Shown one piece after another: positions 46,548 through 64,000 of a stretch of 64,000 nucleotides of DNA. The notes beneath the pieces were generated by a model, which did not search any database, was not told the DNA's origin, and worked only from the letters and a program-made list of their open reading frames with translations. This DNA comes from Epibacterium sp. Ofav1-8. GTDB taxonomy: Bacteria > Pseudomonadota > Alphaproteobacteria > Rhodobacterales > Rhodobacteraceae. A program made the translations under genes and the position numbers. Position 1 is the first letter of the stretch, and every line of letters starts with the position of its first letter. The stretch lies in assembly GCF_022348185.1 (NCBI RefSeq), contig NZ_JAKRFD010000011.1, forward strand, positions 1 through 64,000, written 5' to 3'.

Positions 46548-48323
46548 TCAGTGATTGTGCTTCGGCAGCCGTTTTGACAGATTGCGCATCTCCGGCGCAT
46601 CGCGGATCACCATGCCTTCGCTTAGCGAGGTGGTGGTGCGCTGAAAGATCGCCTCCCAGGGGGTCGAAGGTGCGGTGATCTGCGCGACCGTGGCGGCCCG
46701 CCGTGCCGCCAGCTCTTCTGCTGAAACCAGTAGGTCGCAGCATCCCACAGCTAGATTCACCGACAGCCAGTCGCCGTCGCGAAGCAGCGCCAGCCCGCCG
46801 CCGGTACTGGCCTCGGGACAGACATGCAGGATCGAGGGGCTGTCCGAGGTGCCCGACTGACGCCCGTCGCCGATCGACGGCAGGCTGGCGATCCCCTTGG
46901 TGATCAGCCGATCCGGCGGCTGCATATTGACGACCTCCGCCGAGCCGGGCCAGCCCAGGGGACCGGCATGGCGCATCACCAGAATGCACTGCGCGTCGAT
47001 GTCCAGCGCCGGGTCGTTGATCCGGTGGTGATAATCCTCGCCACCATCGAAAATCACCGCCCGCGCCCGGAAGCGGTTCGGCGCCTCCGGGTCGCTCAGG
47101 AAACGGGCGCGGAACTCGGGCGAGATCACACTGGTCTTCATGATCGCAAAATCGAAGAAATTGCCGCGCATCACCACAAATCCCGCGCGCTCCGCCAACG
47201 GGGTCGAAACCGGGCGGATGACATCGCTGTTGCCGCTTTTGTGGCCCGCGAGATTGGCGCCCAGAGTCTGGCCATTGACGGTCAGGCAGTCCGGCTCCAG
47301 CAGACCGGCGGCGTTGAGTTCCGCCATGACCGCGGGCACGCCGCCCGCGCGATGGAAATCCTCCGACAGATATGTGCCCGCGGGCTGCACATTGGCCAGC
47401 AGCGGGATATCCAGCCCGACCTCCTGCCAGGCCGAGGCGGGCAGGTCGTGGCCCGCATGGGCGGCGATGGCGGTCAGATGCGGCTGTGCGTTGGTGGATC
47501 CGCCGATGGCAGAAATCACCCGGATCGCATTGCGCAGCGCGGCGGGGTTTACGATATCCAGCGGGCGCAGGTCGCGCTGCACAAGATCCACCGCTGCCTT
47601 GCCAGTGCGATATGCCATCTGCCCGCGCTCGCGATAGGGGGCGGGGATTGCCGCCGCCCCGGGCAGGGTCAGCCCCAGCGCCTCGGCCACCGCATTCATG
47701 GTGCTGGCGGTGCCCATGGTGTTGCAATGCCCCACCGAGGGCGCCGAGGCGGCGGCGCGGTCGAGGAACGCATCGCCGTCGATCTCGCCCGCCGCCATCG
47801 CACGGCGCGCCCGCCAGATCACGGTGCCGGAGCCGACTCGCTCCTCCCCCGCCCAGCCGTTCAGCATCGGCCCGCCGTTCAGAACGATGGCGGGAATATT
47901 CACCGTCAGCGCCGCCATGATCGCCGAGGGCGTGGTCTTGTCGCAGCCGGTGGTCAGAACCACCCCGTCGATGGGATAGCCGTTCAGGATCTCCACCAGG
48001 CCCAGATAGGCCAGATTGCGATCCAGCGCCGCCGTCGGGCGGCGGCAGTTCTCGAAGATCGGATGGGTCGGGAAGGACAGCGCGATCCCGCCCGCGTCCC
48101 GGATCCCGTCCCGGACCCGCCGTTCCAGCTCCAGATGCACCCGGTTGCAGGGGGACATGTCGCTGCCCGACTGCGCGATGGCAATGATCGGCCTGCCCTC
48201 GCGCAGCTCTCCGGGTGTAATCCCATAGTTCATGAAACGCTCCAGATAGAGCGCCGTCATATCCAGCCGGTCCTCGCTGTCGAACCAGTCCTGGGATCTC
48301 AGACGTTTGCCTTGCTTTGCCAT
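46548..48323 (-). CDS. IlvD/Edd family sugar-acid (pentonate) dehydratase
   Basis: 591 residues. The three Fe-S cysteines of the IlvD/Edd family are visible: C59 (DMSPCNR), C127 (TTGCDKTTP) and C200 (VGHCNTMGTASTMNAVAEALG). The length and NAYRERG...SGNSDVIRP and ARFLSDPEAPNRF blocks fit the pentonate/hexonate dehydratase branch (D-xylonate or L-arabinonate dehydratase) rather than dihydroxyacid dehydratase. Likely makes 2-keto-3-deoxy-pentonate. Last gene of the minus-strand catabolic operon, 26 bases after the nucleoside hydrolase. Confidence 0.88.
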   Translation of the reverse strand: MAKQGKRLRSQDWFDSEDRLDMTALYLERFMNYGITPGELREGRPIIAIAQSGSDMSPCNRVHLELERRVRDGIRDAGGIALSFPTHPIFENCRRPTAALDRNLAYLGLVEILNGYPIDGVVLTTGCDKTTPSAIMAALTVNIPAIVLNGGPMLNGWAGEERVGSGTVIWRARRAMAAGEIDGDAFLDRAAASAPSVGHCNTMGTASTMNAVAEALGLTLPGAAAIPAPYRERGQMAYRTGKAAVDLVQRDLRPLDIVNPAALRNAIRVISAIGGSTNAQPHLTAIAAHAGHDLPASAWQEVGLDIPLLANVQPAGTYLSEDFHRAGGVPAVMAELNAAGLLEPDCLTVNGQTLGANLAGHKSGNSDVIRPVSTPLAERAGFVVMRGNFFDFAIMKTSVISPEFRARFLSDPEAPNRFRARAVIFDGGEDYHHRINDPALDIDAQCILVMRHAGPLGWPGSAEVVNMQPPDRLITKGIASLPSIGDGRQSGTSDSPSILHVCPEASTGGGLALLRDGDWLSVNLAVGCCDLLVSAEELAARRAATVAQITAPSTPWEAIFQRTTTSLSEGMVIRDAPEMRNLSKRLPKHNH

Positions 48324-48349
48324 CGAATTACACCCGGGGTCCTATGTCG

Positions 48350-49330
48350 TTATGCCTTGGCGGGATCGTAAGCGCCGCCGGTCAGGCGGGACAGAAGCTG
48401 GCTGCGGAAGCCTTCCCGGTTCACATCCTTCACGATACGTGTGTCGGGCGTATCGGGCCATTGCTTCTCGCCGCCGTTGGAGGCGTTGAGACGCCGGTCC
48501 GCCACGGTCATGCCGCGAGTGTGGGTACCGTTTAGCTCCACCTGTACTGGCAGTTCCTCGACCTCGGTGATCAGGCTCTCATCCACAACTACGCCCACGG
48601 TCAGTGCCGAATGCATCGCACAGGCGCGCTGTTCCAGCTTGTTCTCGTAAAAGTCGATATAAAAGGGCAACATTGCCGCCAGGTATTCACCACGCGGACC
48701 GGCGGCCTTCAGGTGCGCAAGCTCGGATTCGTAGAACAATGTGTCATCGGTCACGTCCAGCCCAACCATGGTGACCTTCCAGCCGGGTTCCTGCAACACG
48801 ATCTGCGCCGCCTCCGGGTCGTGCCAGGCGTCGGCCTCGGCCACCGGGGTCACATTGCCCGGCACCCAGACGTTGCCGCCCATCCAGACCACGGATTTCA
48901 GCACCTCGGGCAGCGTCGGGTCGATCTGCATCGCCAGCGCCAGATTGGTCAGCGGGCCGAGCGCGATATAGGTGATCTCGCCGGGATGCTCATGCGCAAG
49001 ATCCACCGTCAACTGCGCGGCGTTTTTCTCCACCGGCTTGACCTTGGTGGCCTTGGGATAACCGGCGTTGCCGACCCCATCCTGTCCATGCACGAAATCC
49101 GCATAGTTCGGCGTGCCCACCAGTGCCCGCGCCGCGCCCCTGGCCAGCGGGATATCCGTGCGGTCGTAGACCTCCATCAGATAGGCGGTGTTCTCGGTGG
49201 TCAGCTCGACCGACACATTGCCGAAGATGCTGGTGAAGGCCAGAATGTCCAGCTCGGGCGATTCCAGCGCCAGCGCACAGCCAAGCGCGTCGTCGATGCC
49301 GGTATCTGTGTCAATGATGACTTTTTTCAT
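48350..49330 (-). CDS. Nucleoside hydrolase
   Basis: 326 residues from ATG 49330 (GGAG upstream). The calcium-binding motif DTDTGIDDA is at residues 7-15, and the later blocks TYIALGPLTNLALAM and EADAWHDPEAAQIVL are typical of inosine-uridine-preferring hydrolases. It cleaves the N-glycosidic bond to base plus pentose in the cytosol. Placed directly behind the nucleoside-type ABC permease genes, it processes the imported nucleoside. Confidence 0.9.
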   Translation of the reverse strand: MKKVIIDTDTGIDDALGCALALESPELDILAFTSIFGNVSVELTTENTAYLMEVYDRTDIPLARGAARALVGTPNYADFVHGQDGVGNAGYPKATKVKPVEKNAAQLTVDLAHEHPGEITYIALGPLTNLALAMQIDPTLPEVLKSVVWMGGNVWVPGNVTPVAEADAWHDPEAAQIVLQEPGWKVTMVGLDVTDDTLFYESELAHLKAAGPRGEYLAAMLPFYIDFYENKLEQRACAMHSALTVGVVVDESLITEVEELPVQVELNGTHTRGMTVADRRLNASNGGEKQWPDTPDTRIVKDVNREGFRSQLLSRLTGGAYDPAKA

Positions 49331-49366
49331 AGTATTCTCCATAGTGCCGCGCAGAGCCGCGCGGGA

Positions 49367-50332
49367 TTAACGTTGACCTTTGGTGTAAGGTTTGCCGCCT
49401 GCCAGCGGTGCCTCGCTCTTGCCGGCGGTGATCGCCAGAAGCAGGATCGCCAGCACATAGGGCATCGCCTGTATGGCTTGCACCGGCACATCGACCTCCG
49501 CGATGCTCAGCCCCTGAAGACGGCTTTGCAGCGCATCCGTCGCCGCGAAGAGCTGGCAGACCAGAAGCACCCGCACCGGTTTCCAGTTGCCGAAGATGAG
49601 GGCGGCCAGCGCCAGATAGCCCTGCCCCGCCGTCATGTCGCGGTAGAAGGCCCCGCCCTGCACGATGGCGAGATAGGCCCCGGCGGCGCCGCACAGAAGC
49701 CCGTTGATCACCATCGCCTGATACCGCATCCGGTAGACCGACACCCCTGCCGAATCCAGCGCCTCGGGCTTGTCGCCACAGGCATACATGCGCAGGCCAA
49801 AGCTGCTGTGATACAGCACCAGATAGGTGACCGCGACGGCGACAAAGGCGCCCAGGGTCAGGATCGTATGGCCCCCGGCCAGACCCGCCAGCGCCGACTG
49901 CAGCGCCGGAACGCCCTCCAGCCAGGAAAACTGCGGCGCAATCGCCGAGAACCGCGCGCCGTCCGGCAAGGGCGGCGTCTGGCCGCCCCGGGCATAAAGC
50001 GCGATGCCGACAAAGACCGTCAGCCCGGTGGCGATGATATTGATCGCCAGCCCCAGCACCAGCTGGTTGCCACGGAACCGCACCGAGGCGACGCCCTGCA
50101 CCAGCGAAACCATCACGCCCACCGCCATCGCGCCGAGAAGGCCGACATAGGGGTTGCCCGCGACCGAGGCCACCGCCCCGGCGGCAAAGGCCCCCAGCAG
50201 CATCTTGCCCTCCAGCCCGATATCGATGATCCCGGAACGTTCCGCGTAAAGCCCCGCGATCGCCGCGAAGATCAGCGGAATCGACAGGCGGATGGCCGAG
50301 GCCAGCAACAGGGGAATATCTGCAAAATCCAT
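49367..50332 (-). CDS. BMP-type nucleoside ABC transporter permease 2
   Basis: 321 residues, about 8 hydrophobic segments. IDIGLEGKMLLGAFAAGAVAS and RFRGNQLVLGLAINIIATGLT are signatures of the second permease of purine-nucleoside/simple sugar ABC systems (NupQ/BmpC type), and the closing stretch LAALIFGNWKPVRV is the usual EAA-like loop. Two bases separate it from the first permease gene. Confidence 0.9.
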   Translation of the reverse strand: MDFADIPLLLASAIRLSIPLIFAAIAGLYAERSGIIDIGLEGKMLLGAFAAGAVASVAGNPYVGLLGAMAVGVMVSLVQGVASVRFRGNQLVLGLAINIIATGLTVFVGIALYARGGQTPPLPDGARFSAIAPQFSWLEGVPALQSALAGLAGGHTILTLGAFVAVAVTYLVLYHSSFGLRMYACGDKPEALDSAGVSVYRMRYQAMVINGLLCGAAGAYLAIVQGGAFYRDMTAGQGYLALAALIFGNWKPVRVLLVCQLFAATDALQSRLQGLSIAEVDVPVQAIQAMPYVLAILLLAITAGKSEAPLAGGKPYTKGQR

Positions 50333-50334
50333 GC

Positions 50335-51450
50335 TCAGGCTCCTTCTGTTTTAGCCGTGGACCGCGACAAGAGCGCCCCGGTCAATGCGTCCGCATAGGG
50401 GCGCAGCATCGTCGCCAGGCCCCCCGCGAAGAAGATGACCAGCCCTTGCAGCACCACCACCACCTCGCGCGAGACGCTCGGGAAGAGGAACACCAGCGAG
50501 GCCCCGCCCTGATAGAGCGCCCCGAACAGCACCGCCGCCGCCACGATGCCAAGGGGCGTATTGGCCCCGATCAGCGCCACCGCGATGCCGATGAACCCGT
50601 ATCCCAATGCGAAATCCAGCGTCAGGCGATGCTGGGCGCCCATGATCTCGTTCACCGCCATCAGCCCGACCAGCGCGCCCGACAGGCAGATCGCCTGCGC
50701 GGTCATCCGCCCGATCGGCACCCCGGCCACCCGGGCCGCACGGTCGTTGGCCCCGGCAGCGCGCAGCTCATAGCCCCATTTGGTGCGCCACAGCGCCCGG
50801 TAGACCGCATAGCTGACCGCCAGCGCCACGAAGATCATCACGTTCAGCGGCGCGGGCTGGAAGCGAAAGCCGAAACTGTTGATCATGTCGATGATCTGCG
50901 GCAGCCGCTGCCCCGGTTCCAGCCCCGGTCCGGCAGGCGCCATCGACCCCGCCGGGCGCAGCACGCTCACGATCAGGTAGATCATCAGGAGCGAGGCGAT
51001 GAAGTTGAACATGATGGTGGTGATCACCAGGTGGCAATTGCGCCGCACCACCAGATAGGCGGGCACCGCCGCCCAGGCCGCCCCGAAGAGCGCCGCCCCC
51101 GCAACCGCCAGCGGCAGCAGCGCCCACCAGGGCATCCACGGCAGCCAGATGCACAGCACTGCCACGATCAGCCCCGCGAAATAGGCCTGCCCTTCGCCGC
51201 CGATATTGAACTGGCGCACATGCGCCGCCAGCGCGAAGCCGAGGCCGGAAAAGATGAAGTTCGTCGCGTAATGCAACGTGTAGCCGATGCCGTCGACGGT
51301 GCCAAAGGCCCCCTCCAGCACCGCCGCATAGGCGCGGAACGGGTTTTCGCCGACCGCGAGGATCAGCACCCCGCCCAGGAACAGGGCAGCGGCGATATTC
51401 AGGAGCGAGGCCAGCAGGCCGCCGAGTGCGGATTGGGTATGTGCGGTCAT
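50335..51450 (-). CDS. BMP-type nucleoside ABC transporter permease 1
   Basis: 371 residues, about 10 hydrophobic segments. NIGGEGQAYFAGLIVAVLCIWLP and LVVRRNCHLVITTIMFNFIASLLMIYLIV are typical of the larger permease (NupP/BmpB type). Its ATG overlaps the ATPase stop by four bases. Forms the membrane channel with the neighbouring permease. Confidence 0.9.
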   Translation of the reverse strand: MTAHTQSALGGLLASLLNIAAALFLGGVLILAVGENPFRAYAAVLEGAFGTVDGIGYTLHYATNFIFSGLGFALAAHVRQFNIGGEGQAYFAGLIVAVLCIWLPWMPWWALLPLAVAGAALFGAAWAAVPAYLVVRRNCHLVITTIMFNFIASLLMIYLIVSVLRPAGSMAPAGPGLEPGQRLPQIIDMINSFGFRFQPAPLNVMIFVALAVSYAVYRALWRTKWGYELRAAGANDRAARVAGVPIGRMTAQAICLSGALVGLMAVNEIMGAQHRLTLDFALGYGFIGIAVALIGANTPLGIVAAAVLFGALYQGGASLVFLFPSVSREVVVVLQGLVIFFAGGLATMLRPYADALTGALLSRSTAKTEGA

Positions 51451-53018
51451 TCTGCCACCTCCTGGGACATTTCGGCGGTGGCTTCCTTGCTGTAGCCCGC
51501 CATCATCATGCCGATCCGGCGCTCGGAGAACTCGGATTTGTCCAGCACCCCCATGGAGCGCCCCTCGAACATCACCAGCACCCGGTCCGACAATGCGATC
51601 AGTTCCTCCAGCTCGACCGAAACCACCATCAGCGCCTTGCCCTTGTCGCGCTCCTGGCGCAAGTGGTCGTGGATGAACTCGATAGCGCCGATGTCGACGC
51701 CCCGGGTCGGCTGGCCGATCAACAGCACATCCGGGTCGAAACTCAGCTCGCGCCCGATCACCAGTTTCTGCTGGTTGCCGCCGGAAAAGAAACTCATCCG
51801 CCGCGCCGGGTCGGCGGGGCGCACATCATGGTCCCGCATCAGGTCGCCGCACCACTCGCTGTGCATCTCCGCGCCAGGATAACGCGCGGTCAAAGTGTCG
51901 TAGAACGGGGTCCGGGTCAGCCCCAGCACCGCGTTTTCCGAGGCCGGCCAGGCGCCGACCAGCGCCTCGCCCAGCCGATCCTCTGGCACCAGGCCGACAC
52001 CGCGCTGGCGCAGCTCCGCCAGACCGATGCTGTCGCCCGCCCCGATCTCGATATCGCGCATGCGGATCCTGCCGGAGGTGACCGGCATCAACCCCGCCAT
52101 CGCCCGCAGGATTTCTGACTGGCCGTTGCCCGAAACCCCGGCGACCCCGAGGATTTCCCCCTCGCGGATCTCGAAGGACACATCCCGCACCAGCCGGATA
52201 TCGCGGCTGTCGCAGACCGTCAGGTTCTCGACGCTCACCTTCACCGCCTCGCCGCAGGGCTTGCGCTCCACCGGCCGCGCCCGCAGCGCCCGGCCCACCA
52301 TGCCCTCGGCCAGCGCCTCGCGGCTGGTCTCGGCGGTGCGCAGGGTATCGACCACCTCGCCATGGCGCAGGATGGTCACATTCCGGGTCGCCTCCATCAC
52401 CTCCTGCAACTTGTGGGTGATCAGCACCACGGTTTTGCCGTCCGCCACCAGATCACGCATCACATGAAACAGCAGCTCCACCTCGGGCGGCGTCAGCACG
52501 CTGGTCGGCTCGTCCAGGATCAGCAGCTCCGCCCCGCGATAGAGCGCCTTCACGATCTCGATCCGCTGCTGGATGCCGACCGCCAACTGACCCACTGGCA
52601 CATCTAGCGGGAATTCCAGCCCGTAGCGCTGCTGGATCGCCTCGATTTCGCGGCGGGCCTGGCCATTGCGCCGCCCCAGCCAGAAGCCCCCTTCGCTGCC
52701 CAGCATCAGGTTTTGCAGCGCCGTCTGCCGCTCCACCAGCATGAAATGCTGGTGCACCATGCCGATGCCGAGGCGGATGGCATCGCTCGGCGTCTTGATA
52801 TCGGCCCGCGCGCCATTGATCAGCACCTCGCCACCGTCGGGATCGTACAGCCCGAAGAGCATCGACATCAGCGTGGTCTTGCCGGCGCCGTTCTCGCCGA
52901 TCAGCCCGTGAACGGTGCCCCGTTCGACCTTGAAGGACACGCTGTTGTTGGCGACGACCGGTCCGAACGATTTGCTGATATCGCGAAATTCAAGGTGACT
53001 TGCCTCCTGATCCGTCAT
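51447..53018 (-). CDS. ABC transporter ATPase with two nucleotide-binding domains
   Basis: 523 residues. First domain: Walker A GENGAGKTT, signature region LAVGIQQRIEIVKALYRGAELLILDEPTS. Second domain: degenerate Walker A GVSGNGQSE, signature SFFSGGNQQKLVIGREL, Walker B LLIGQPTRGVD. The degenerate second Walker A and Walker B is normal for BMP/ribose-type ATPases. Drives nucleoside import. Its start overlaps the end of the DMFase-like gene by 29 bases. Confidence 0.9.
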   Translation of the reverse strand: MTDQEASHLEFRDISKSFGPVVANNSVSFKVERGTVHGLIGENGAGKTTLMSMLFGLYDPDGGEVLINGARADIKTPSDAIRLGIGMVHQHFMLVERQTALQNLMLGSEGGFWLGRRNGQARREIEAIQQRYGLEFPLDVPVGQLAVGIQQRIEIVKALYRGAELLILDEPTSVLTPPEVELLFHVMRDLVADGKTVVLITHKLQEVMEATRNVTILRHGEVVDTLRTAETSREALAEGMVGRALRARPVERKPCGEAVKVSVENLTVCDSRDIRLVRDVSFEIREGEILGVAGVSGNGQSEILRAMAGLMPVTSGRIRMRDIEIGAGDSIGLAELRQRGVGLVPEDRLGEALVGAWPASENAVLGLTRTPFYDTLTARYPGAEMHSEWCGDLMRDHDVRPADPARRMSFFSGGNQQKLVIGRELSFDPDVLLIGQPTRGVDIGAIEFIHDHLRQERDKGKALMVVSVELEELIALSDRVLVMFEGRSMGVLDKSEFSERRIGMMMAGYSKEATAEMSQEVAE

Positions 53019-55182
53019 CTAGTGACCTCCTTGTCGGTTCTTGTTCTGTAGTTTTTTGTGTTTTTGTTGTCCTGTGGCCGGACCGCTCCAGCATGTCGTG
53101 CAGCGCCGCCGTCAACAGCGCCGCACAGGACCGGCGGTCCCCCGAGTCGCGCAGCCCCTCGGCCCAGCGGATGGACCCGATGGAGAGGCCGAGGCCCCCC
53201 GCAGCATGCTCCACCAGCACGATTTGCCCCCGCACCGCGGCGCGCAGCTTTGCCTCCGCACCGGTAGAAAAGCCGTCCAACGACGGGAAATCTTCGATGG
53301 CCGGGACATAGCCCGCGGGTAATTCAACCGCTTGCGCCAGCACATGCCGCCGCCCGGCGCGGAACCCCTGTGGACGCACCCCATCAAGTTCCAGCCCCGC
53401 AACGCCGAAGGGCGCATCGCCGAGATCTGCCAACACCTGCGCAATCCGGGGCGGCAGAGACCCGCTGTCCAGATCCGGCGCTCGCTGGTAAGAACCGTCG
53501 CCGGAGAACCCCATGGCGCAGAAGCTGTTGCCGAAGATTGCCTCTGGCGCGGGGGCGAAATTGCGGCTCAGCCCGCCCGGCCTGCCGTCGAGGGCATGGC
53601 AGGCCTCGCCCGGCTCGGCGTCCCAGGTGCGCACACCCTCGCGGCGGGCCACTTCGATCAGATGCGGCGCCTGCGGAGCACGCGCGATGCGCCAGTAGAA
53701 CCCGTTACCCCCCGCATAGAGGATCGAACCGCCGCGCTGCCGGTGCCGGTCATAGGCGCCGAGCGAGGCGCGGGTGCAATATTCGGGATGCGATCCGGTG
53801 ATCGCCACATCGTACCCTGCCAGAACATCCGCGGTCTCATCGTCGAGGCATTCGTCGGTCAGGACATCAAACGCAGTTCCGCTGACCCGCAACCAGTCGA
53901 GGATCGCAAGATCGGCAGCGAATTGATGCGGCATACCCAGAAGCTGCGAGTGGAAATCCGCCCGCACCGTCAACTGCGGCCGCCGCGCCGAGGCCAGCGC
54001 CACGCCGCTCCCATCGCCATGCTGGCAATAGAGCGATTTCAACCCCATCTGCGCCGCCGCCTCATACAGGGGCGCCGACTGCGTCGGCCCCGCCTGCGGG
54101 AACTGCTCGGGGTCTTCGGGTTGCCAGAAACTGTTGTTGGCATAGGCGCGATAGCTGAAGGTCGGCATCACCAGCGCGACCCGTGCGCCTGTCGCCGCAC
54201 CGGGGGTCACGAACAGAGGCAGCGCGTCGAAACTCTCGCGATCCGCCCAGTTGACCTCTGGCCCGGTCGACAGGATCGCGGAATAGACGCCCGTCTCCTC
54301 CGGCGCGGTCAGGGTGGTCAGCACAGGCCAGCCCGCGTCCTCCAGATCGTCGCCGCTCAGGTCGACCGCGTTGAACTGCTCGGGTGCGGTGCCAGGGACA
54401 TGCTCACCGGTCCAACCGCGAGCGGGGACCGCCCTGCGCGGGGCACCGTGCAGCCAGCCGTCGAAAGCGCCGAGCTGCCTATCAGAAACCGCCATCGGAT
54501 GCGCCGCCGCACGCGCTAGATCCCAGCATGCCAACTCGCGACCCATGGCGTCATGCAACACAGGATGGCCGATGCGACAGCGGCTCGCGGGCCAGCCCGG
54601 TAGCGCGCCGAGGATCAGGCGGTCGAGCCGCGCTGTCGGCACAGACAGCGCCATATCAAACGCGGCTCCCTGCCCTTCCGGCCCGAGCACTCGAACTTCC
54701 AACGCATCATTGCGCAAACCTAGGGTGCAGCGATTCCACCGCATCGGGTCCAGTCGCAGATCGACCTCCTGCGCAGCCACCACACGTTCATCCTCGATCC
54801 ATTCCAGTACCGGGGTAAAACGGTCGGTAATCGACATCCTCAAACCCGCACTGCCACCGATCAGAGCCGCTATCCCACCGCAAGCCGCGCCCGAGGCGGG
54901 CAGCCGGAGATCGAAGCCGAGTTCGAACCCGGCCTCCAGTGCAGAACCGATCCTGACCTCGAACCACGACCCCGACGGCACCGAAAGCTCCGTCTGGTCG
55001 CAACGGAGTGCCTGCACATCCGTCACCGCCTTGCTGGTCTGAGGCCAGTCACAGGGTGTCGACACCGGCCCTAGATGTTGTCTCAGATGCAGATAGACGA
55101 GACCTGAGACAGAGGCCGCATGCACCGTGAAAGGGGCGCCGGCCTTGACGCTCCAATCGGGAATGTAACCTGTGACTTGCAT
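52990..55182 (-). CDS. N,N-dimethylformamidase large-subunit-like hydrolase
   Basis: 730 residues from ATG 55182. N-terminal LamG/carbohydrate-like beta region (about 20-210), then the dimethylformamidase-beta core: FAADLAILDWLRVSGTAFDVLTDECLDD, AGYDVAITGSHPEYCTR with H465 and E467 matching the iron-binding His-x-Glu of DmfA2, and SILYAGGNGFYWRI. The family splits amides such as dimethylformamide using mononuclear iron. The substrate here is likely a different formyl or ring amide, since it lies inside a nucleoside transporter operon (between binding protein and ATPase). The small DMFase subunit gene is not seen. Confidence 0.78.
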   Translation of the reverse strand: MQVTGYIPDWSVKAGAPFTVHAASVSGLVYLHLRQHLGPVSTPCDWPQTSKAVTDVQALRCDQTELSVPSGSWFEVRIGSALEAGFELGFDLRLPASGAACGGIAALIGGSAGLRMSITDRFTPVLEWIEDERVVAAQEVDLRLDPMRWNRCTLGLRNDALEVRVLGPEGQGAAFDMALSVPTARLDRLILGALPGWPASRCRIGHPVLHDAMGRELACWDLARAAAHPMAVSDRQLGAFDGWLHGAPRRAVPARGWTGEHVPGTAPEQFNAVDLSGDDLEDAGWPVLTTLTAPEETGVYSAILSTGPEVNWADRESFDALPLFVTPGAATGARVALVMPTFSYRAYANNSFWQPEDPEQFPQAGPTQSAPLYEAAAQMGLKSLYCQHGDGSGVALASARRPQLTVRADFHSQLLGMPHQFAADLAILDWLRVSGTAFDVLTDECLDDETADVLAGYDVAITGSHPEYCTRASLGAYDRHRQRGGSILYAGGNGFYWRIARAPQAPHLIEVARREGVRTWDAEPGEACHALDGRPGGLSRNFAPAPEAIFGNSFCAMGFSGDGSYQRAPDLDSGSLPPRIAQVLADLGDAPFGVAGLELDGVRPQGFRAGRRHVLAQAVELPAGYVPAIEDFPSLDGFSTGAEAKLRAAVRGQIVLVEHAAGGLGLSIGSIRWAEGLRDSGDRRSCAALLTAALHDMLERSGHRTTKTQKTTEQEPTRRSLDDGSGGKSP

Positions 55183-55208
55183 GATCTCGCCCAAGTTTCC
55201 GCGTGCCG

Positions 55209-56228: not shown

Positions 56229-56264
56229 GTTACAGTCTCCTGTTGGTTATCTGTGGCGCGGGTT

Positions 56265-57197: not shown

Positions 57198-58072
57198 TCC
57201 GCCTCCTCCTGCCGGAACCGCAGGGCATAGCCGCTGTGGTCGGTCTCCGCATGGCCGTTCCCGGCCAGATCGGCAAAGGTGCGCGCCACCGCATTCGCCA
57301 CCTCCAGCCGCGCGAAAGCGGCGGGATCCGCCGCCTGCGCCAGCCCCAGGTCCTTCAGATGCAGGCGGATAGGCCCGGCGCTGCCGTATTCCTCCGCCAC
57401 GATCTTCGGCCCGTGCACCTGCAATACCCGGCTGTCGGCAAAGCCCCCCGCCAGCGCAGTCAACAGACTGGCGCGATCGACGCCGAGGGTTCTGGCGAAT
57501 TCCAGCCCCTCGGCCACCGCCGCGATGGTGTCGGCCACGATGATTTGATTGGCCAGTTTGGCCGCTTGACCCGCCCCGGTCTCGCCCAGGTGATGCGGTG
57601 TGCCGCAGGCGCGCAGAATGTCGGCGGCGCGGGCCACCGCCCCCGCGTCACCACCCAGGAACAAGGTCAGGCGTCCCGCTTCGGCCCCCACCACGCCTCC
57701 GGAGACTGGCGCGTCCACCAGGTCGATGCCGCGCGCTGCGCATTCCCCAGCCAGCCAGCGAGTGCCCTCCAGCCCGGTGGTACCCATGTCGATCACCAGC
57801 CCCCCCGATGCGAGACTGTCCAGCACCTTCGTCTGCGCCAGCGCAGCCCGGATTGCGGCGGCGTCGGGCAGGCAGAGAATTAACACCTCTGTCCCGCCCT
57901 CCGCTGCTCGACCCCAGGGCGTCTCCATCGGGCGCACCGCGACGGCTCCGTCCAGCCCCGGACGGCGGTTCCCGTCGCGGGTCAGGCCGCAGACCTCATG
58001 GCTGGCAGACGCCAGCCGGTTGGCAATCGGCACGCCCATATACCCGAGGCCGAGGATCGCGATCCGGCTCAC
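57194..58072 (-). CDS. Beta-hydroxyacid dehydrogenase (3-hydroxyisobutyrate dehydrogenase family)
   Basis: 292 residues. GLGYMGVPIANRL (Rossmann), DAPVSGGVVGAE (substrate loop), GAGQAAKLANQIIV with the catalytic Lys. Oxidises a beta-hydroxyacid (tartronate semialdehyde/6-phosphogluconate family) with NAD(P). Its role in a nucleoside-pentose pathway is unclear; it could act on a side product or the unusual base side chain. GTG start overlaps the aldo/keto reductase stop by four bases. Confidence 0.87.
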   Translation of the reverse strand: MSRIAILGLGYMGVPIANRLASASHEVCGLTRDGNRRPGLDGAVAVRPMETPWGRAAEGGTEVLILCLPDAAAIRAALAQTKVLDSLASGGLVIDMGTTGLEGTRWLAGECAARGIDLVDAPVSGGVVGAEAGRLTLFLGGDAGAVARAADILRACGTPHHLGETGAGQAAKLANQIIVADTIAAVAEGLEFARTLGVDRASLLTALAGGFADSRVLQVHGPKIVAEEYGSAGPIRLHLKDLGLAQAADPAAFARLEVANAVARTFADLAGNGHAETDHSGYALRFRQEEAE

Positions 58073-59094
58073 CGCATTACCTCCGGCAAGCTGTCCGGGT
58101 GGATCAGCGACAGATCGCGCAGCCGGGTCCAGAACCCCCGCGGAATCGCCACATCCAGCAGCGCCGCATTCTCGCGCGCCTGCTCCGGGCTGCCCGCGCC
58201 GGACACCACGGTGGCGACAATCGGGTTGAGCAGCGGAAACTGGAACGCCGCCGCCTTCAGCGGCACGTCGAATTCGTGGCAGACCCCCTCGATAGCGCGC
58301 ACCTTGGCGACCATCTCCGGCTCTGCAGGCACGTAGTTATAAAAGGGTGTCTCTACCGTTGTGCCGGTGGCCAGGATGCCCGAGGCGAAGGGAGAACCGA
58401 TCACGATACCCACGTCGCGCGCGGCGCAGGCGGGGAATTCCGCCTCCAGCACCTCCTGATCCAGCAGCGTATAGGGCATCGCCACCAGAAAGAAATCGAG
58501 GTCGAACCGGCGCAGCATCTCCGGGATGGTGCCGAGGATATTGACCCCTGCGCCGATGCCCTTGATCTCGCCATAGGTGCGCAGCATCTCCAGCGCCCGC
58601 CAGCCGGATTTCTCCAGATCGCGGAAATGAGCATCGACCAGATCCTGAGAGCCGATCTCGGCCACGTCCAGATCGTGGATCAGCAGTAGGTCGATGCTGT
58701 TGATGCCCAGCCGCATCATGCTCTGCTCGTAAGAACGCATGATGCCGTCATAGGTGTAGTCGAACCGGTAATCGAACGGTAGGCCGCCTTTCCAGAATGT
58801 CGGACGATAGGTCTCCGGCTCCTGCGGGCGAAAGAAAGTGCGGCCGATCTTGGTCGACAGCACGAAGTCCTGACGCGGCTTGCTGCGCAGCATCTCGCCG
58901 AACCTCAACTCGCTCAGCCCGTGGCCGTACCAAGGCGAGGTGTCGAAATAGCGGATTCCACTGTCCCAAGCAGCCTCCAGCGTGGCGCGCGCTACATGAT
59001 CCGGCACCGGCGCGTAGATCTCGCCCAGTGTGACCCCGCCCATGCCTACGCAGGAGGGATGCGCGCCAGTCTGTCCAAGTTCACGTGTGTTCAT
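58069..59094 (-). CDS. Aldo/keto reductase, aldose-dehydrogenase-like
   Basis: 341 residues. AKR tetrad: D and Y in RYFDTSPWYGHGLSE, K in VLSTKIGR, H in LLLIHDLD. The N-terminus TGAHPSCVGMGGVTLGEIYAPVPD and the order of insertions resemble D-threo-aldose/L-fucose dehydrogenases, which oxidise the C1 hemiacetal of aldoses to the lactone with NAD. That would supply the lactone for the SMP-30 enzyme. Its end overlaps the next gene by four bases. Confidence 0.85.
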   Translation of the reverse strand: MNTRELGQTGAHPSCVGMGGVTLGEIYAPVPDHVARATLEAAWDSGIRYFDTSPWYGHGLSELRFGEMLRSKPRQDFVLSTKIGRTFFRPQEPETYRPTFWKGGLPFDYRFDYTYDGIMRSYEQSMMRLGINSIDLLLIHDLDVAEIGSQDLVDAHFRDLEKSGWRALEMLRTYGEIKGIGAGVNILGTIPEMLRRFDLDFFLVAMPYTLLDQEVLEAEFPACAARDVGIVIGSPFASGILATGTTVETPFYNYVPAEPEMVAKVRAIEGVCHEFDVPLKAAAFQFPLLNPIVATVVSGAGSPEQARENAALLDVAIPRGFWTRLRDLSLIHPDSLPEVMR

Positions 59095-59755
59095 CGCTCT
59101 TGATCTCCGGGTGGTTTTTCAAGATGGGGCCGATCAAATGGTGCTTCAGCTCGGCGGCAAGCCCAGTCGGATCCTCGAAGATCGCCTGCACCAGTCGGCG
59201 GTGATCCTCAATCGACTCCTCAAAGTCGAAGACGTCGCTGCGCTCATGCAGCAGGAAGACGAAGACGTTGCGCGAAATCGACTGCCAAAGCGACATCAGC
59301 ACCGAACTGCCGCTCAGCTCGATAAGGGTCCGGTGAAACGAAAGGTCGGCCCGGCAATAGGCGGGCAGATCGTCCAGTAGCGCGCATTTCTCCAGCTCTC
59401 GTACGCAGCGGTCCAGCGCGGCCCGGGTCTGGGCGCTGCGGTCGGGGTCGCTCAGAACGCGGCGGATCGCGATACCCTCGACGGTCTCGCGCACCTCCAG
59501 CATCTCCATCGTCTCCGACATGCTCGGCGCGTTGACAAAGACGCCCCGGTTCGGCTTGGCATGCAACAGCCCCTGCGCCTGCAACAGCCGCATAGCCTCG
59601 CGCACCGGCACCCTGCTGACCTGAAGGCTTTCGCAGATCTCCCGCTCCGCAACCTTCTCGCCGGGTTTCAGATTGCCGGAGGCCACTTCCATCACGATGA
59701 AATCCGCCACCTGATCGGTGACACTGATATGGGTGATCGCGGGTTTGAGGGTCAT
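59081..59755 (-). CDS. GntR-family regulator (FadR subgroup)
   Basis: 224 residues. Winged HTH with ISVTDQVADFIVMEVASGNLKPGEKVAEREICESLQVSRVPVREAMRLLQAQGLL, then a helical FCD ligand domain with DLSFHRTLIELSGSS (His metal site) and later EDHRRLVQAI. Probably responds to a sugar acid and represses both arms of the locus. Candidate operator at 61143. It overlaps the aldo/keto reductase start by 14 bases, so it is in the operon. Confidence 0.88.
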   Translation of the reverse strand: MTLKPAITHISVTDQVADFIVMEVASGNLKPGEKVAEREICESLQVSRVPVREAMRLLQAQGLLHAKPNRGVFVNAPSMSETMEMLEVRETVEGIAIRRVLSDPDRSAQTRAALDRCVRELEKCALLDDLPAYCRADLSFHRTLIELSGSSVLMSLWQSISRNVFVFLLHERSDVFDFEESIEDHRRLVQAIFEDPTGLAAELKHHLIGPILKNHPEIKSDEHT

Positions 59756-59776
59756 GTCGTTTGCGTCCTTTGGAAA

Positions 59777-61075
59777 TCAGATCAGATGAGCCCAGCGTTT
59801 GAAAAACGCGCGCACGGACTCGACGATATGGTCTGCATCCTCAGGGGAAATGGCCAGACTCATATTGATCTGACTGCGCCGCGCCAGATAGACGCCGGAC
59901 AGGATCATTTCGAGCTGGAACAGCTTATACGTGAGGCGCGGCACTTCCCGCAGGTCCTCCGGCCCGTGGATCTCGCCCCCGGTGAAATGCAGGTTCATGA
60001 TCGATCCCAGACCGGTGAACTGCGCCGCCGCATTACTCTCGCGCACCACCGCGTTCAGCCGGGCGCGCAGGGCATCGCCCGCCTCGGTCAGCTGCACCGC
60101 GCGCGCGGGCGTGAAGACCTGCGTCAGACCAGCGTGACCGGCCAGCATGGTGAAGAGATTGTTGTTGAAGGTCCCGGCATGGGGCAGCGCCCCCGGACGC
60201 GACGGATCCATATGCGCCATCAGCGCCACCCGCCCGCCAAAGGCGCCGAAGGAGAACCCCGCGCCCAGATATTTGCCTAGCGTCGTCAGATCCGGCATCA
60301 CATCATAGAGCGCCTGCATCCCGCCCGCCCCGATCCGCGAGGTCACCACTTCGTCGAAGATCAGCAGCACCCCGCATTCGTCGCAGGCCGCGCGCAGGCC
60401 GCGCAGGAAGTCGCGGCTGGCGGGCAGCGACCCGGCGTTGCTCATCATCGGTTCGACAATGACGGCGGCCAGATCCTGCGCCTGCTCGCGGATCATCGCC
60501 ACCGATCCCTCGATGTCGTTATAGCGGCCGAACACCCAGTCGAATGGGGCATTCATCGCATTGTCGACATCGGAGAACACAAAGACGCCGCCATGATAGG
60601 CGCCATGGAAGGCCATCAGCTTGTTGCGCCCGGTCGCATGGCGCGCCAGTTGCAGCGCATAGAGATTGGCCTCGGTGCCCGAATTGCAGAACCGCACCTG
60701 CTCGATGGCTGGGAAACGGGCGCAAACCACCTCGGCAAGGTCGATCTCGGAGGCCCCCGGCGCGCCATTCGACGCCCCCAGCTCCAGCGCACGCTGCGCG
60801 GCGGCCAGGATTGCCGGTTCCTTGTGGCCGTACAGCCCCGCGGAAAATTCTCCCAGCGCATCGATATAGCTGTGCCCGTCCACATCCGTGACCCGCGATC
60901 CGGTGCTGCGCACCACATAGAGCGGGAAAGGATCGAAATGCAGCGCGGTCCGGGTATTGCCTCCGGGCATCGCCGCCTGCGCCCGCCGGTGCAGCGCAAG
61001 GCTTTCGGGATTGGCCTCGCTATAGCGCTGCTCCAGCTCGGCCACGGCTTGCTCGATTTCACTGGTGACGGGCAT
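59777..61075 (-). CDS. Class III aminotransferase (glutamate-1-semialdehyde-aminomutase-like)
   Basis: 432 residues. PLP lysine in TLGKYLGAGFSFGAF, FNNNLFTMLAGHAGLTQV and the start block ALHRRAQAAMPGGNTRTALHFDPFPLY are typical of the HemL-like branch of fold-type I enzymes, many of which are ordinary omega-aminotransferases. As first gene of the minus-strand operon it may remove an amino group from the imported compound or its base-derived side chain; unproven. It is preceded by the divergent promoter region. Confidence 0.85.
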   Translation of the reverse strand: MPVTSEIEQAVAELEQRYSEANPESLALHRRAQAAMPGGNTRTALHFDPFPLYVVRSTGSRVTDVDGHSYIDALGEFSAGLYGHKEPAILAAAQRALELGASNGAPGASEIDLAEVVCARFPAIEQVRFCNSGTEANLYALQLARHATGRNKLMAFHGAYHGGVFVFSDVDNAMNAPFDWVFGRYNDIEGSVAMIREQAQDLAAVIVEPMMSNAGSLPASRDFLRGLRAACDECGVLLIFDEVVTSRIGAGGMQALYDVMPDLTTLGKYLGAGFSFGAFGGRVALMAHMDPSRPGALPHAGTFNNNLFTMLAGHAGLTQVFTPARAVQLTEAGDALRARLNAVVRESNAAAQFTGLGSIMNLHFTGGEIHGPEDLREVPRLTYKLFQLEMILSGVYLARRSQINMSLAISPEDADHIVESVRAFFKRWAHLI

Positions 61076-61142
61076 CCTTCTCTCCCCGTTAATTCTGCCA
61101 GAGCCGACATCCTCTGGTCAGAGGCTTATTGTATTTTCGTCA

Positions 61143-61165
61143 GATTGTAATACGATAAGACAATC
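61143..61165. promoter_or_regulatory. Candidate GntR operator in the divergent promoter
   Basis: GATTGT-N11-ACAATC (61143-61165), a 6-bp-arm dyad in an AT-rich patch between the two operons. FadR-type GntR proteins bind short dyads of this kind. It lies 83 bases upstream of the FAH-family start and 68 upstream of the aminotransferase start. Confidence 0.5.
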
Positions 61166-61247
61166 AACATTGCAAGTCCGAACTGCCGTGGGGCCCCGAC
61201 CGGGGGCGCGGGGCAGCACAAAGGGCGGCAACAACCGGAGGAAAAAA

Positions 61248-62357
61248 ATGAGCGATGCGAACACGCCCCTGATGATAGGCAGGGTGCAGACCGAGGCCGG
61301 CCCCTGCGTGGTGACAGAGCGCGACGGGCGGGTGATCGACATCACCACCAAAGGCGCCGCGCTGGTCAGAGATATCTTCGAGATGGAACGCCCCGCCGAA
61401 TATGTGCAGCAGGCGACGGGCCGCGATCTCGGCCCGGTGGCGGAGATCACCCGCGCCGGGGCCTGGCTTGCGCCTTGCGACCTTCAGGCGGTGAAGGCCT
61501 GCGGCGTGACCTTCGCCGAATCGCTGATCGAACGAGTGGTCGAGGAACGCGCAGCAGGCGATGCCACTCTGGCCCAGAGCATCCGCCTGCAGATTGAGGA
61601 GGAAATCGGCACCACCATCGAAGGGCTCGTCCCCGGCTCCGAAGCCGCGATGAAACTGGCCCGCCAACTTAAAGCCGCTGGCCTCTGGAGCCAGTATCTG
61701 GAGGTCGGCATCGGCCCTGACGCTGAAGTCTTCACCAAGGCGCAGGTGCTCTCCGCCGTCGGCACCGGGGCGCTGATCGGCGTGCACCCCGGCTCGGCCT
61801 GGAACAACCCGGAGCCGGAGGTGGTGCTGGCGGTGAACTCCCGCGGCGAGATCCTCGGCGCCACCCTCGGCAACGATGTGAACCTACGCGATGTGGAAGG
61901 CCGCTCCGCCCTGCTGCTGGGCAAGGCCAAGGACAATAACGCCGCTTGCGCCATCGGCCCGATGATCCGGCTGTTCGACGACGGTTTCAGCCTCGACGAC
62001 GTGCGCAGCGCGGTGATTTCCTTGCGGGTGGAAGGGCCGGACGGCTTTGTGCTGGAAGGTCAGTCCGACATGCGCCGGATCAGCCGCGACCCCGCCGATC
62101 TGGTGGCCCAGACCCTTGGCCACCACCATCAATACCCGGATGGGCTGATGTTGTTTCTCGGCACCCTCTTCGCCCCCACCCAGGACCGCGACGCGCCGGG
62201 ACAGGGTTTCACCCATCACATGGGCGACGTGGTGGAAATTTCCTGCCCCGGCCTCGGCACCCTGCGCAACACGGTGGCCGCCACCGATGCCTGCCCGCCC
62301 TGGACGTTTGGCACCCGCGCCCTGATCGCCTCTCTGGCGACCCGCAACCTACTCTGA
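61248..62357 (+). CDS. FAH-family dehydratase, XylX-like (2-keto-3-deoxy-pentonate dehydratase)
   Basis: 369 residues from ATG 61248 (GGAGG seven bases upstream). A fumarylacetoacetate-hydrolase-fold C-terminal half with GVHPGSAWNNPEPEVVLAVNSRGEILGATLGNDVNLRDVEGRSALLLGKAKDNNAACAIGP (Mg-binding Glu-x-Glu and Asp) and QFLGTLFAPTQDRDAPGQGFTH. Such 370-390-aa proteins are XylX-type enzymes of the Weimberg route, converting 2-keto-3-deoxy-pentonate to 2-oxoglutarate semialdehyde. The next gene is the matching semialdehyde dehydrogenase. Confidence 0.83.
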   Translation: MSDANTPLMIGRVQTEAGPCVVTERDGRVIDITTKGAALVRDIFEMERPAEYVQQATGRDLGPVAEITRAGAWLAPCDLQAVKACGVTFAESLIERVVEERAAGDATLAQSIRLQIEEEIGTTIEGLVPGSEAAMKLARQLKAAGLWSQYLEVGIGPDAEVFTKAQVLSAVGTGALIGVHPGSAWNNPEPEVVLAVNSRGEILGATLGNDVNLRDVEGRSALLLGKAKDNNAACAIGPMIRLFDDGFSLDDVRSAVISLRVEGPDGFVLEGQSDMRRISRDPADLVAQTLGHHHQYPDGLMLFLGTLFAPTQDRDAPGQGFTHHMGDVVEISCPGLGTLRNTVAATDACPPWTFGTRALIASLATRNLL

Positions 62358-62373
62358 AGGATTTTGAAGGAAG

Positions 62374-63915
62374 ATGACAATGTTGCATGGCGGAAGCCTG
62401 ATCGACGGAACCTGGCACAGCACCGGTCCCCGCTTCACCAACGCGCCGGTGGACGGCGCCCCCGATACGTTCCATGCCCCCGGCGCGGCGGACCTGGACC
62501 AAGCGGTCGTGGCGGCCGAGGCGGCCTTTGCCACCTATGGGCGCCTGCCGGGCAGCGCCCGCGCCCGTTTCCTGCGCCGTATCGCCACCGAACTAGAGGC
62601 CCGCGGCGCGGCTCTGACCGAGATTGGCACCCGCGAGACCGGTCTACCCGCCGCCCGGCTTGAGGGCGAGCGCGGGCGCACCGTCGGCCAGTTGCGCATG
62701 TTCGCCGATCTGGTGGCGCGCGGCGACGACCTGATGCCGCGCCATGTGCCCGCCGATGCCAGCCGCACGCCCCCCCGGCCCGATCAGCAGCTGCTGCACC
62801 GCCCCATCGGCCCAGTGGCGGTTTTCGCCGCCTCGAATTTCCCGCTGGCCTTCTCGGTAGCGGGGGGCGACACCGCCTCGGCGCTGGCGGCGGGATGTCC
62901 GGTGGTCTTCCGTGCCCATTCCGCCCATCCCGGCACCTCAGAAGTGGCGGCTCAGGCCATCCAGGCCGCGATTGTCGCCGAGGGGCTGCCCGGCGGCGTG
63001 TTCTCGCTGTTGCAGGCGGGCAGCCGCGAGATCGCCACGGCACTGGTGCAACATCCGCTGATCAATGCCGTCGGCTTCACCGGATCGCTTGGCGGCGGGC
63101 GCGCGCTGTTCGACCTCTGCCACCGCCGCCCGATGCCGATCCCCTTCTTCGGCGAGCTGGGCTCGGTGAACCCGGTCTATGTCTTCGAGGCCGCCGCCAG
63201 CGCCCGCGCCGCCGGGATCGCCAGCGGCTGGGTCGCCTCACTGGGCCTCGGCGCGGGGCAGTTCTGCACCAATCCCGGCATTATCGTGCTGCCCGATCGG
63301 GACGATGTGGTCGCGACCTTCACCCAGGCCGCCATCGCGGCGGCCAAGGACACCGCCCCCCAGACCATGCTGACCGAGCGCATCGCCAGCGCCTATCACA
63401 CCGGCGTCGCCCATCTGGCGCGGCTGGCCGAACAGGTCTACGGCAACACCGACGGCACCGGTCGCAGCGCCGACATGGCGCTGTTCCAGTGCAGCGACGC
63501 CGAGCTGATCGACACCCCGGCCCTGGCCGAGGAAGTCTTCGGCGCCGCCGGGCTGATCGTGCGCGCCAGCGGCACCGATGCCTTTGCTCGAATCGCCGCC
63601 GCCCTGCCCGGCCAGTTGACCGCGACCCTGCATCGCGATCCCGCCGACCACGCCGCCGCCGAGGCGCTGCTGCCGCTGCTGGCGCGCAAGGCGGGGCGGG
63701 TGCTGTTCAACGGCTTCCCCACCGGGGTCGACGTTTCCGCCGCGATGGTGCACGGTGGCCCCTACCCGGCCTCGACCAATTTCGGCGCGACCTCAGTCGG
63801 AGAATTGTCGATCCACCGCTGGCTGCGTCCGGTCTGTTTTCAGGACATGGGCGCGCCTGCGCAGGACATACTGATCCTGCCCGACCCGAACCAGAGCGAG
63901 GCCCCGCAAAGATGA
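62374..63915 (+). CDS. NADP-dependent aldehyde dehydrogenase, 2-oxoglutarate-semialdehyde type
   Basis: 513 residues. Nucleophile in LGAGQFCTNPGIIVLP, Glu in FGELGSVNPVYVFE, N-terminal nucleotide loop VFAASNFPLAFSVAGGDTASALAAGCPVVFRAHSAHPGT. This is the subgroup of alpha-ketoglutarate-semialdehyde dehydrogenases with the 'GELGSVNP' motif, the last step of Weimberg-type routes. Coupled (ATGA) to the adenine-deaminase-like gene and 16 bases after the FAH-family gene. Confidence 0.88.
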   Translation: MTMLHGGSLIDGTWHSTGPRFTNAPVDGAPDTFHAPGAADLDQAVVAAEAAFATYGRLPGSARARFLRRIATELEARGAALTEIGTRETGLPAARLEGERGRTVGQLRMFADLVARGDDLMPRHVPADASRTPPRPDQQLLHRPIGPVAVFAASNFPLAFSVAGGDTASALAAGCPVVFRAHSAHPGTSEVAAQAIQAAIVAEGLPGGVFSLLQAGSREIATALVQHPLINAVGFTGSLGGGRALFDLCHRRPMPIPFFGELGSVNPVYVFEAAASARAAGIASGWVASLGLGAGQFCTNPGIIVLPDRDDVVATFTQAAIAAAKDTAPQTMLTERIASAYHTGVAHLARLAEQVYGNTDGTGRSADMALFQCSDAELIDTPALAEEVFGAAGLIVRASGTDAFARIAAALPGQLTATLHRDPADHAAAEALLPLLARKAGRVLFNGFPTGVDVSAAMVHGGPYPASTNFGATSVGELSIHRWLRPVCFQDMGAPAQDILILPDPNQSEAPQR

Positions 63916-64000
63916 CCCAATCCGCCACTCCGTCGCTGTCGCGGCTGATCCGCAGTGCCCGTGGCCTTGAGGAGGCGGATCTGGTGATCCGCGGCGGCCA
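63912..64000 (+). CDS. Adenine deaminase, N-terminal part (cut by window edge)
   Basis: ATG 63912 overlaps the ALDH stop (ATGA). The visible 29 residues MTQSATPSLSRLIRSARGLE then EADLVIRGGQ show the adenine deaminase start (LIRxARGxEEADLVIRGG). Converts adenine to hypoxanthine and ammonia. It indicates that the nucleoside handled here has an adenine-type base. The metal site lies beyond the edge. Confidence 0.7.
   Translation, partial: MTQSATPSLSRLIRSARGLEEADLVIRGG

Follow-up and report, generated by a model that had tools for sequence, protein, structure and literature searches.

A divergent locus of Epibacterium sp. Ofav1-8 joins nucleoside uptake genes to a Weimberg-type oxidation set, with amino-nucleosides as possible substrates

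Introduction

Can a bacterium oxidize the sugar of an imported nucleoside directly to 2-oxoglutarate, and which sugar would it be? This question is raised by a divergent locus of Epibacterium sp. Ofav1-8, in which genes for a BMP-type importer and a nucleoside hydrolase share a gene run with a sugar-acid dehydratase, opposite genes for the last steps of a Weimberg-type pathway. We analyzed positions 1 to 64,000 of contig NZ_JAKRFD010000011.1, and this whole 64,000-nucleotide stretch is called the window. A preliminary description of the window had proposed that the pentose of imported purine nucleosides is oxidized there. Judged from the sequence, a pentose taken from a nucleoside is likely to be oxidized to 2-oxoglutarate, and plain ribose is not favored as that pentose. 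The reading we prefer, tentatively and without giving it an even chance, is that the locus breaks down nucleosides of the 3'-amino-3'-deoxyadenosine type, possibly N-acylated, via D-xylonate and the Weimberg end-steps to 2-oxoglutarate. Papers are cited by PMC number, each for the portion of its text available to us.

Gene content of the divergent locus

The importer, nucleoside hydrolase, dehydratase, SMP-30, aldo-keto reductase (AKR), XylX-like and aldehyde dehydrogenase (ALDH) genes of the preliminary description were all recovered as open frames near the positions given for them, with family matches, and the adenine deaminase gene that starts in the window is complete just past it. That gene list was real and yet short, because four genes of the same operon had been overlooked: an aminotransferase, a GntR transcription factor, a beta-hydroxyacid dehydrogenase and a DMFA2_C-family acylase (Table 1).

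In the map of open reading frames, twelve minus-strand genes form one packed run in which neighbors overlap or are separated by at most 36 bp. Reading leftwards from about 61 kb, the first six encode the aminotransferase, GntR, AKR, beta-hydroxyacid dehydrogenase, SMP-30 and BMP proteins, and the last six the acylase, the importer ATPase, two permeases, the nucleoside hydrolase and the IlvD/EDD dehydratase. The beta-hydroxyacid dehydrogenase gene overlaps the AKR and SMP-30 genes by 4 bp each. The XylX, ALDH and adenine deaminase genes lie on the other side of 172 bp and diverge from this run.

Nucleoside-type importer and hydrolase with changed residues

As the preliminary description had claimed, the importer and the hydrolase match nucleoside-type families, and their sequences support membership in them. 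Models NF047927-NF047930 have names that hint at a pyridoxine importer, but we rejected this, as the scores were far under the cut-offs.

In E. coli RihA, Asp10, Asp15 and Asp241 bind a calcium ion that binds the 2'- and 3'-hydroxyls, while the attacking water is held by Asn166 and Asp10 (PMC2898832). Located through the motifs E-x-N and H-D, the counterparts of RihA Asn166 and Asp241 in the window hydrolase are Asp171 and Ser245, so this enzyme lacks the full set of three Asp calcium ligands and water-holding Asn of a canonical inosine-uridine hydrolase. The comparison took in 33 other hydrolases (27 read from frames, 6 by translating the matched stretch), and all 33 retain both Asn and Asp; among them is the canonical second hydrolase of the Epibacterium genome, on another contig. 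The Asp and Ser pair occurred only in the window and in a Rhizobiales locus (UCEZ01000051.1, hereafter L164). A structure of the window hydrolase predicted from its one sequence was uninformative (mean pLDDT 30.6).

The binding protein is altered as well. At alignment columns 245 and 262, 87 of 91 relatives carry Asp and Lys, compared with G245 and S262 in the window and Gly and Ala in L164. The changes common to the window and L164 suggest a ligand other than ordinary ribonucleosides in both loci; the alternative is a loss or change of hydrolase function. Four other BMP relatives (L174, L212, L221 and L241) have Arg and Gln at these columns and are perhaps a further ligand class.

L164 resembles the window in its acylase (41% identity), GntR factor (45%), BMP protein (62%), ATPase (58%), permease 1 (58%), permease 2 (55%) and hydrolase (55%, with the identical D/S changes), and its GntR gene lies between the acylase and binding-protein genes. 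It differs in having a cytidine deaminase. In the window, the GntR/FCD factor is likely to regulate both divergent operons; comparison with L164 yielded no convincing operator common to the two loci.

Other relatives are alphaproteobacterial clusters that combine a ribokinase, a nucleoside hydrolase and a BMP-ABC importer (L113, L118, L136, L137 and L139), with 36-42% identity in the hydrolase and 43-51% in importer parts. Unlike them, the window has no ribokinase, altered hydrolase and BMP residues, and additional oxidative, transaminase and acylase genes. With the L113 ribokinase as query, tblastn (E 1e-3) gave no match in the window, in contig positions 61001-81000 or in L164. The bypass of ribose-phosphate proposed in the preliminary description agrees with this absence; among 27 hydrolase neighborhoods, 7 carry a ribokinase (the L113 enzyme, or one at least 43% identical to it). 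Another contig of the Epibacterium genome has a PfkB/ribokinase-like gene that scores under the ribokinase cut-off. As a separate observation, an isopenicillin-N-synthase-like gene (2OG-Fe(II) oxygenase-like, by eye) lies between hydrolase and binding protein at L113:9975-10814, L118:8541-9407 and L138:10527-11549.

Oxidative enzymes and a D-xylonate-type dehydratase

D-Ribonate and D-xylonate would yield the same 2-keto-3-deoxy-D-pentonate, a point of pathway knowledge that the preliminary description had right. For the steps beyond this compound, the XylX-type protein is 54.6% identical to 9kkt, which we take to be Caulobacter XylX, and thus qualifies as a 2-keto-3-deoxy-D-pentonate dehydratase. 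The ALDH scored just 90 bits against the solved 2-oxoglutarate-semialdehyde dehydrogenase 5x5t, and an ALDH relative is found near XylX in 15 of 92 neighborhoods. The dehydratase, at 64.5% identity to 5oyn, qualifies as the pentonate dehydratase of a Weimberg set. By sequence, these three enzymes appear to fit the Weimberg end-steps, as had been described. Like Weimberg sets of the Caulobacter D-xylose type, the locus has a D-xylonate-type dehydratase, a XylX-type dehydratase, a lactonase of the same family and an ALDH that recurs near other XylX genes; unlike them, it has an AKR as the proposed sugar dehydrogenase, and its operon also holds the nucleoside importer, hydrolase, transaminase, acylase and reductase genes.

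The best solved relative of the AKR is the L-galactose dehydrogenase 7ezi (113 bits). At the motif positions it has Asp51, Tyr56, Lys83 and His140, presumably the catalytic tetrad. AKR relatives (46-52% identical) adjoin XylX in L070, L085 and L090, which we judged by eye to be clusters of the L-fucose/D-arabinose type; the same ALDH occurs in two of these three loci. These loci have no nucleoside genes and, judging by eye, differ from the window in carrying a mutarotase, a lactonase of the amidohydrolase type and other dehydratases. Activity on D-arabinose and L-fucose has been reported for a COG0667 AKR whose gene adjoins that of a D-KDP dehydratase (PMC6336799, cluster 4).

We then compared the dehydratase residues with those of 5oyn, which we take to be the Caulobacter D-xylonate dehydratase described in PMC5770437. 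With an offset of nine residues, six of seven residues checked from the available text of that paper (Leu26, Glu29, Arg30, Arg174, Ser490 and His591) were as expected and are retained in the window; the seventh, Asn92, is Glu in both enzymes and adjoins an Asn. Against 13 sequences of its clade, the window enzyme differs at nine otherwise invariant columns, none of them in the recognition helix, and one (S483 for Thr) lies a few residues from the catalytic Ser. By these residues it reads as an orthodox D-xylonate type. Sugar-acid IlvD/EDD dehydratases are reported to take only (2R,3S) acids and not D-ribonate, and one tried on four D-pentonates used D-xylonate only (PMC9314677, available text).

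Neither the AKR context nor the dehydratase type would point to D-ribose. The identification of the sugar as plain D-ribose is thus opposed by the D-xylonate-type dehydratase, by the L-fucose/D-arabinose-type relatives of the AKR and by the changed hydrolase and binding-protein residues.

Enzymes of the beta-amino acid type

The aminotransferase is closest, among solved proteins, to the beta-transaminase 2yku/6iz9 (419 bits) and the beta-phenylalanine aminotransferase 4ao9 (378 bits), with the best GSA aminomutase well behind at 232 bits. In the Variovorax beta-transaminase, Arg41 and Glu75 bind the carboxylate, and Val43 and Tyr76 contact the aromatic ring (PMC9850050, available text). The window enzyme has R42 and E76 at the first pair and A44 and F77 at the second, as matched by an offset from table ranges with an assumed 20-residue tag, not by residue alignment. 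Its closest relatives and the carboxylate-binding Arg (by offset) place it in the beta-transaminase (MesAT/VpAT) subfamily. A 49% identical aminotransferase relative was seen in a cluster of the beta-keto-acid cleavage type.

The nearest solved protein to the acylase is the N-acetyl-(R)-beta-phenylalanine acylase 8huy (211 bits), followed by the dimethylformamidase 6lvb (164 bits). For the beta-hydroxyacid dehydrogenase, the nearest named family is 2-hydroxy-3-oxopropionate reductase (TIGR01505, 172.7 bits vs a cut-off of 340.75), and its solved relatives are 9rb2, 4dll and 1yb4.

A proposed route from amino-nucleosides to 2-oxoglutarate

Natural products include 3'-amino-3'-deoxyadenosine, N-acyl forms of it and puromycin, and a route for such compounds can be drawn through the locus. 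The BMP/ABC importer would take up the nucleoside, and the DMFA2_C enzyme would strip the N-acyl group, either from the nucleoside or from a later N-acyl-beta-amino acid. The altered hydrolase would release the base for deamination by adenine deaminase, whose presence favors adenine over the dimethyladenine of puromycin. From 3-amino-3-deoxy-D-ribose, AKR and SMP-30 would produce 3-amino-3-deoxy-D-ribonate by oxidation and lactone opening. This 3-amino-2-hydroxy acid is a beta-amino acid, and the beta-transaminase would convert it to a 2-hydroxy-3-oxo acid. Reduction by the enzyme of the 2-hydroxy-3-oxo-acid reductase type would then set C3 as S and yield D-xylonate (2R,3S,4R), the expected substrate of the dehydratase, which IlvD, XylX and ALDH would take to 2-oxoglutarate. 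We infer every substrate, the step order and the regulation; the gene content, families, packing, residue changes and partial orthologous locus behind them were directly observed.

Under the amino-nucleoside reading, no enzyme of the locus is left without a role, and the stereochemical mismatch disappears. We favor it because the nearest relatives of the otherwise unexplained enzymes act on the types of compound it needs (beta-transaminase, N-acyl-beta-amino-acid acylase and 2-hydroxy-3-oxo-acid reductase), and because the dehydratase is of the D-xylonate type, although such enzymes reportedly reject D-ribonate. The hydrolase has lost a ligand of the calcium whose RihA counterpart contacts the 2'- and 3'-hydroxyls, the BMP columns are changed in both the window and L164, and L164 links the acylase, GntR, BMP importer and altered hydrolase. 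Further, the Arg and Glu for carboxylate binding are retained in the transaminase and the aromatic-pocket residues are not (by offset), the twelve genes are tightly packed and divergent from XylX-ALDH-adenine deaminase, and the genome has its canonical second hydrolase and the PfkB/ribokinase-like gene on other contigs.

Several points weigh against it. The lost calcium ligand might mean an inactive or repurposed hydrolase, and the reductase scored under its family cut-off. Beta-keto acids decarboxylate spontaneously (PMC9850050), which would need avoiding. The superfamily of the window dehydratase can accept ribonate, since D-ribonate and D-xylonate were used equally well by one of its dihydroxy-acid dehydratases (PMC9314677). 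L164 has the acylase and altered hydrolase, together with a cytidine deaminase, and its stretch, on a contig that ends 431 bases past the hydrolase, has no match to the AKR, reductase, lactonase, transaminase, IlvD, XylX or ALDH. The pairing of transaminase and acylase was found in one of ten acylase-relative loci besides L164 (L156; 28% and 33% identity). Finally, a second complete cluster was not found among the 92 XylX loci examined, the 27 hydrolase loci and the best 80 of 575 BMP loci.

The main rival, which we consider doubtful, is that ordinary ribonucleosides are hydrolyzed and free D-ribose is oxidized through ribonolactone and ribonate to 2-oxoglutarate. This would account for the nucleoside-type importer and hydrolase, the adenine deaminase and the missing ribokinase, and the dihydroxy-acid dehydratase above can use D-ribonate. 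Haloarcula oxidizes D-ribose to 2-oxoglutarate by the same series of lactone, pentonate and 2-keto-3-deoxypentonate (PMC8551123). However, the ribonate dehydratase dedicated to this step in Haloarcula is an enolase-superfamily enzyme, and a nucleoside link is not mentioned in the available text of that paper. Ribonucleoside oxidation in the window would need an AKR and a dehydratase shifted to the ribo configuration, or a beta-hydroxyacid dehydrogenase that epimerizes ribonate to xylonate at C3; it conflicts with the sugar-acid type of the dehydratase and the changed hydrolase and BMP residues, and it leaves the transaminase and acylase without a role.

It is unlikely, in our view, that another modified nucleoside or N-glycoside is the substrate, with its sugar passing through the Weimberg end-steps and the acylase, beta-transaminase and reductase acting on a separate beta-amino acid, e.g., from a pyrimidine ring or an aminoacyl side group. 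The residue changes in the hydrolase and BMP protein argue for an unusual ligand here too, L164 places the acylase and hydrolase beside a cytidine deaminase, and the 49% identical transaminase relative lies in a cluster of the beta-keto-acid cleavage type. Nevertheless, no dihydropyrimidinase or other ring-opening gene was found among the genes of the locus, and the reductase gene is nested between those of AKR and lactonase, suggesting a function in the sugar branch.

Some microbes make amino-nucleosides as antibiotics. If the amino-nucleoside reading is true, bacteria could feed on such compounds, with a ribo sugar entering the xylose pathway via a ketone at the amino carbon. It would also define a new nucleoside-hydrolase subfamily with a remodeled metal site and a new binding-protein subfamily, both of which should then be kept apart from ordinary nucleoside salvage in annotation. 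A bacterial oxidative route from nucleoside to 2-oxoglutarate would be unusual even if the ribonucleoside reading alone is true.

Conservation of the nucleoside and oxidative genes

The window hydrolase, itself apart, had nothing above 43% identity in 198 family genomes (cut-off 1e-45) or 385 class genomes (cut-off 1e-52). The L164 hydrolase, searched in its own family and order, found only itself (1 of 199) and itself plus three at 39-41% (4 of 264), respectively, with no further close member. The acylase had a match in 9 of 149 family genomes, its own included, the other eight being at most 35% identical; no match was found in 17 congeners, and a contig scan with the acylase as query found no relative. 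One acylase-relative locus, L156 (Palleronia sp. LCG004 plasmid), has a class III aminotransferase gene followed directly by DMFA2_C-family, class II aldolase and TRAP transporter genes.

XylX was matched in 60 of 198 family genomes, its own included, with relatives up to 70% identical. Outside the window, 138 places were listed in the genomes sampled (62 family, 76 class), of which we examined 92 with flanks, namely all 62 from the family and 30 of the 76 from the class; 75 of these 92 stretches were at least 19 kb (shortest 3.4 kb), and neighbors were counted at a query coverage of at least 50%. Besides ALDH, the neighbors were relatives of IlvD (26), beta-hydroxyacid dehydrogenase (12), ABC ATPase (12), GntR (9), AKR (6), class III aminotransferase (2) and SMP-30 (1). 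The hydrolase, BMP protein, permeases, acylase and adenine deaminase were found in none of the 92. Conversely, XylX, IlvD, AKR and SMP-30 were found in none of the 27 hydrolase neighborhoods, one of which belongs to the second hydrolase of the Epibacterium genome (L119); a BMP protein occurred in 9 of them. Three XylX relatives are present elsewhere in the L164 genome.

BMP loci were collected by a pattern scan of genome contigs with the BMP alignment. Among the best 80 of 575 relatives, the acylase occurred only in L164, with GntR, importer and hydrolase, and XylX only in L181. There, a XylX group adjoins a BMP importer and a gene that resembles, by eye, one for purine nucleoside phosphorylase. 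L181 was rejected as a second combined cluster, as its XylX lies in a divergent group and there is no hydrolase match.

Therefore, the nucleoside module of acylase, GntR, importer and hydrolase turned up once more, in L164; joined to the oxidative set, it was seen in the window alone. The nucleoside-plus-Weimberg combination, whose co-conservation outside the Epibacterium genome the preliminary description had set as a check, did not appear in the neighborhoods examined. A literature search covering few subscription journals found no description of a nucleoside hydrolase with a Weimberg set or of a pathway for amino-nucleoside breakdown. D-Ribose oxidation to 2-oxoglutarate by itself is already reported, in Haloarcula.

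In 2-kb steps, GC content is 62-70% across 46-64 kb vs 51-66% across 1-46 kb, which fits acquisition by transfer without proving it. An IS6-family transposase gene lies 3' of adenine deaminase, beyond the locus, and beyond the left end is a fragment that resembles IS110, weakly and under the cut-off. It is improbable that nucleoside salvage and a D-xylose/D-arabinose/L-fucose-type sugar-acid oxidation were joined on a mobile segment without shared flow: the transposase and fragment, the high GC and the absence of either half beside the other in the 92 XylX and 27 hydrolase neighborhoods would suit it, but within one packed run the dehydratase gene comes right after that of the hydrolase and the AKR-reductase-lactonase genes right before that of the binding protein, and no separate pentose importer was found in the locus.

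Features and flanking genes

Table 1. Features of the divergent locus, in window positions unless marked as contig
Feature	Position	Strand	Basis or proposed role
IlvD/EDD dehydratase, D-xylonate type	46548..48323	-	PRK13017 937 bits, above cut-off
Nucleoside hydrolase, altered active site (D171, S245)	48350..49342	-	PF01156 301 bits
ABC permease 1	49367..50332	-	NF047928 157 bits, under cut-off
ABC permease 2	50335..51450	-	NF047929 109 bits, under cut-off
Double ABC ATPase of importer	51447..53018	-	NF047930 413 bits, under cut-off 670
DMFA2_C-family amidohydrolase (acylase-like)	52990..55194	-	PF20254 176 bits
BMP/PnrA-type periplasmic binding protein	55209..56228	-	PF02608 175 bits
SMP-30/gluconolactonase-type lactonase	56265..57197	-	PF08450 112 bits; solved gluconolactonases 3e5z, 3dr2
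Beta-hydroxyacid dehydrogenase, proposed 2-hydroxy-3-oxo-pentonate reductase giving D-xylonate	57194..58072	-	TIGR01505, sub-cut-off
AKR, proposed aldose 1-dehydrogenase	58069..59094	-	PF00248
GntR/FCD transcription factor	59081..59755	-	PF00392 + PF07729
Class III aminotransferase, beta-transaminase subfamily	59777..61075	-	proposed 3-amino-3-deoxypentonate to 3-oxo acid
Divergent region, 172 bp, common to both operons	61076..61247	.	gene starts
XylX-type FAH-family protein, proposed 2-keto-3-deoxy-D-pentonate dehydratase	61248..62357	+	54.6% identity to 9kkt
ALDH, proposed 2-oxoglutarate-semialdehyde dehydrogenase	62374..63915	+	best solved relative 3v4c, 539 bits
Adenine deaminase	63912..64000 in window, complete at contig 63912-65621	+	TIGR01178 586 bits, cut-off 472.5

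Two observations concern the flanks. At window positions 44772-46247, near IS-related sequence, an aldehyde dehydrogenase frame covers 414 of 461 Pfam model positions and is probably cut short at its C-terminal end. Past the IS6 transposase, a same-strand gene run at contig 67161-73742 (L016:6161-12742) encodes a 433-aa protein without a Pfam match, an AMP-binding ligase, a 320-aa protein without a Pfam match (methyltransferase-like by eye), an acyl-CoA-dehydrogenase-C-terminal protein, a cupin-like frame (by eye) and an MFS transporter; it looks like a small biosynthetic or catabolic cluster.

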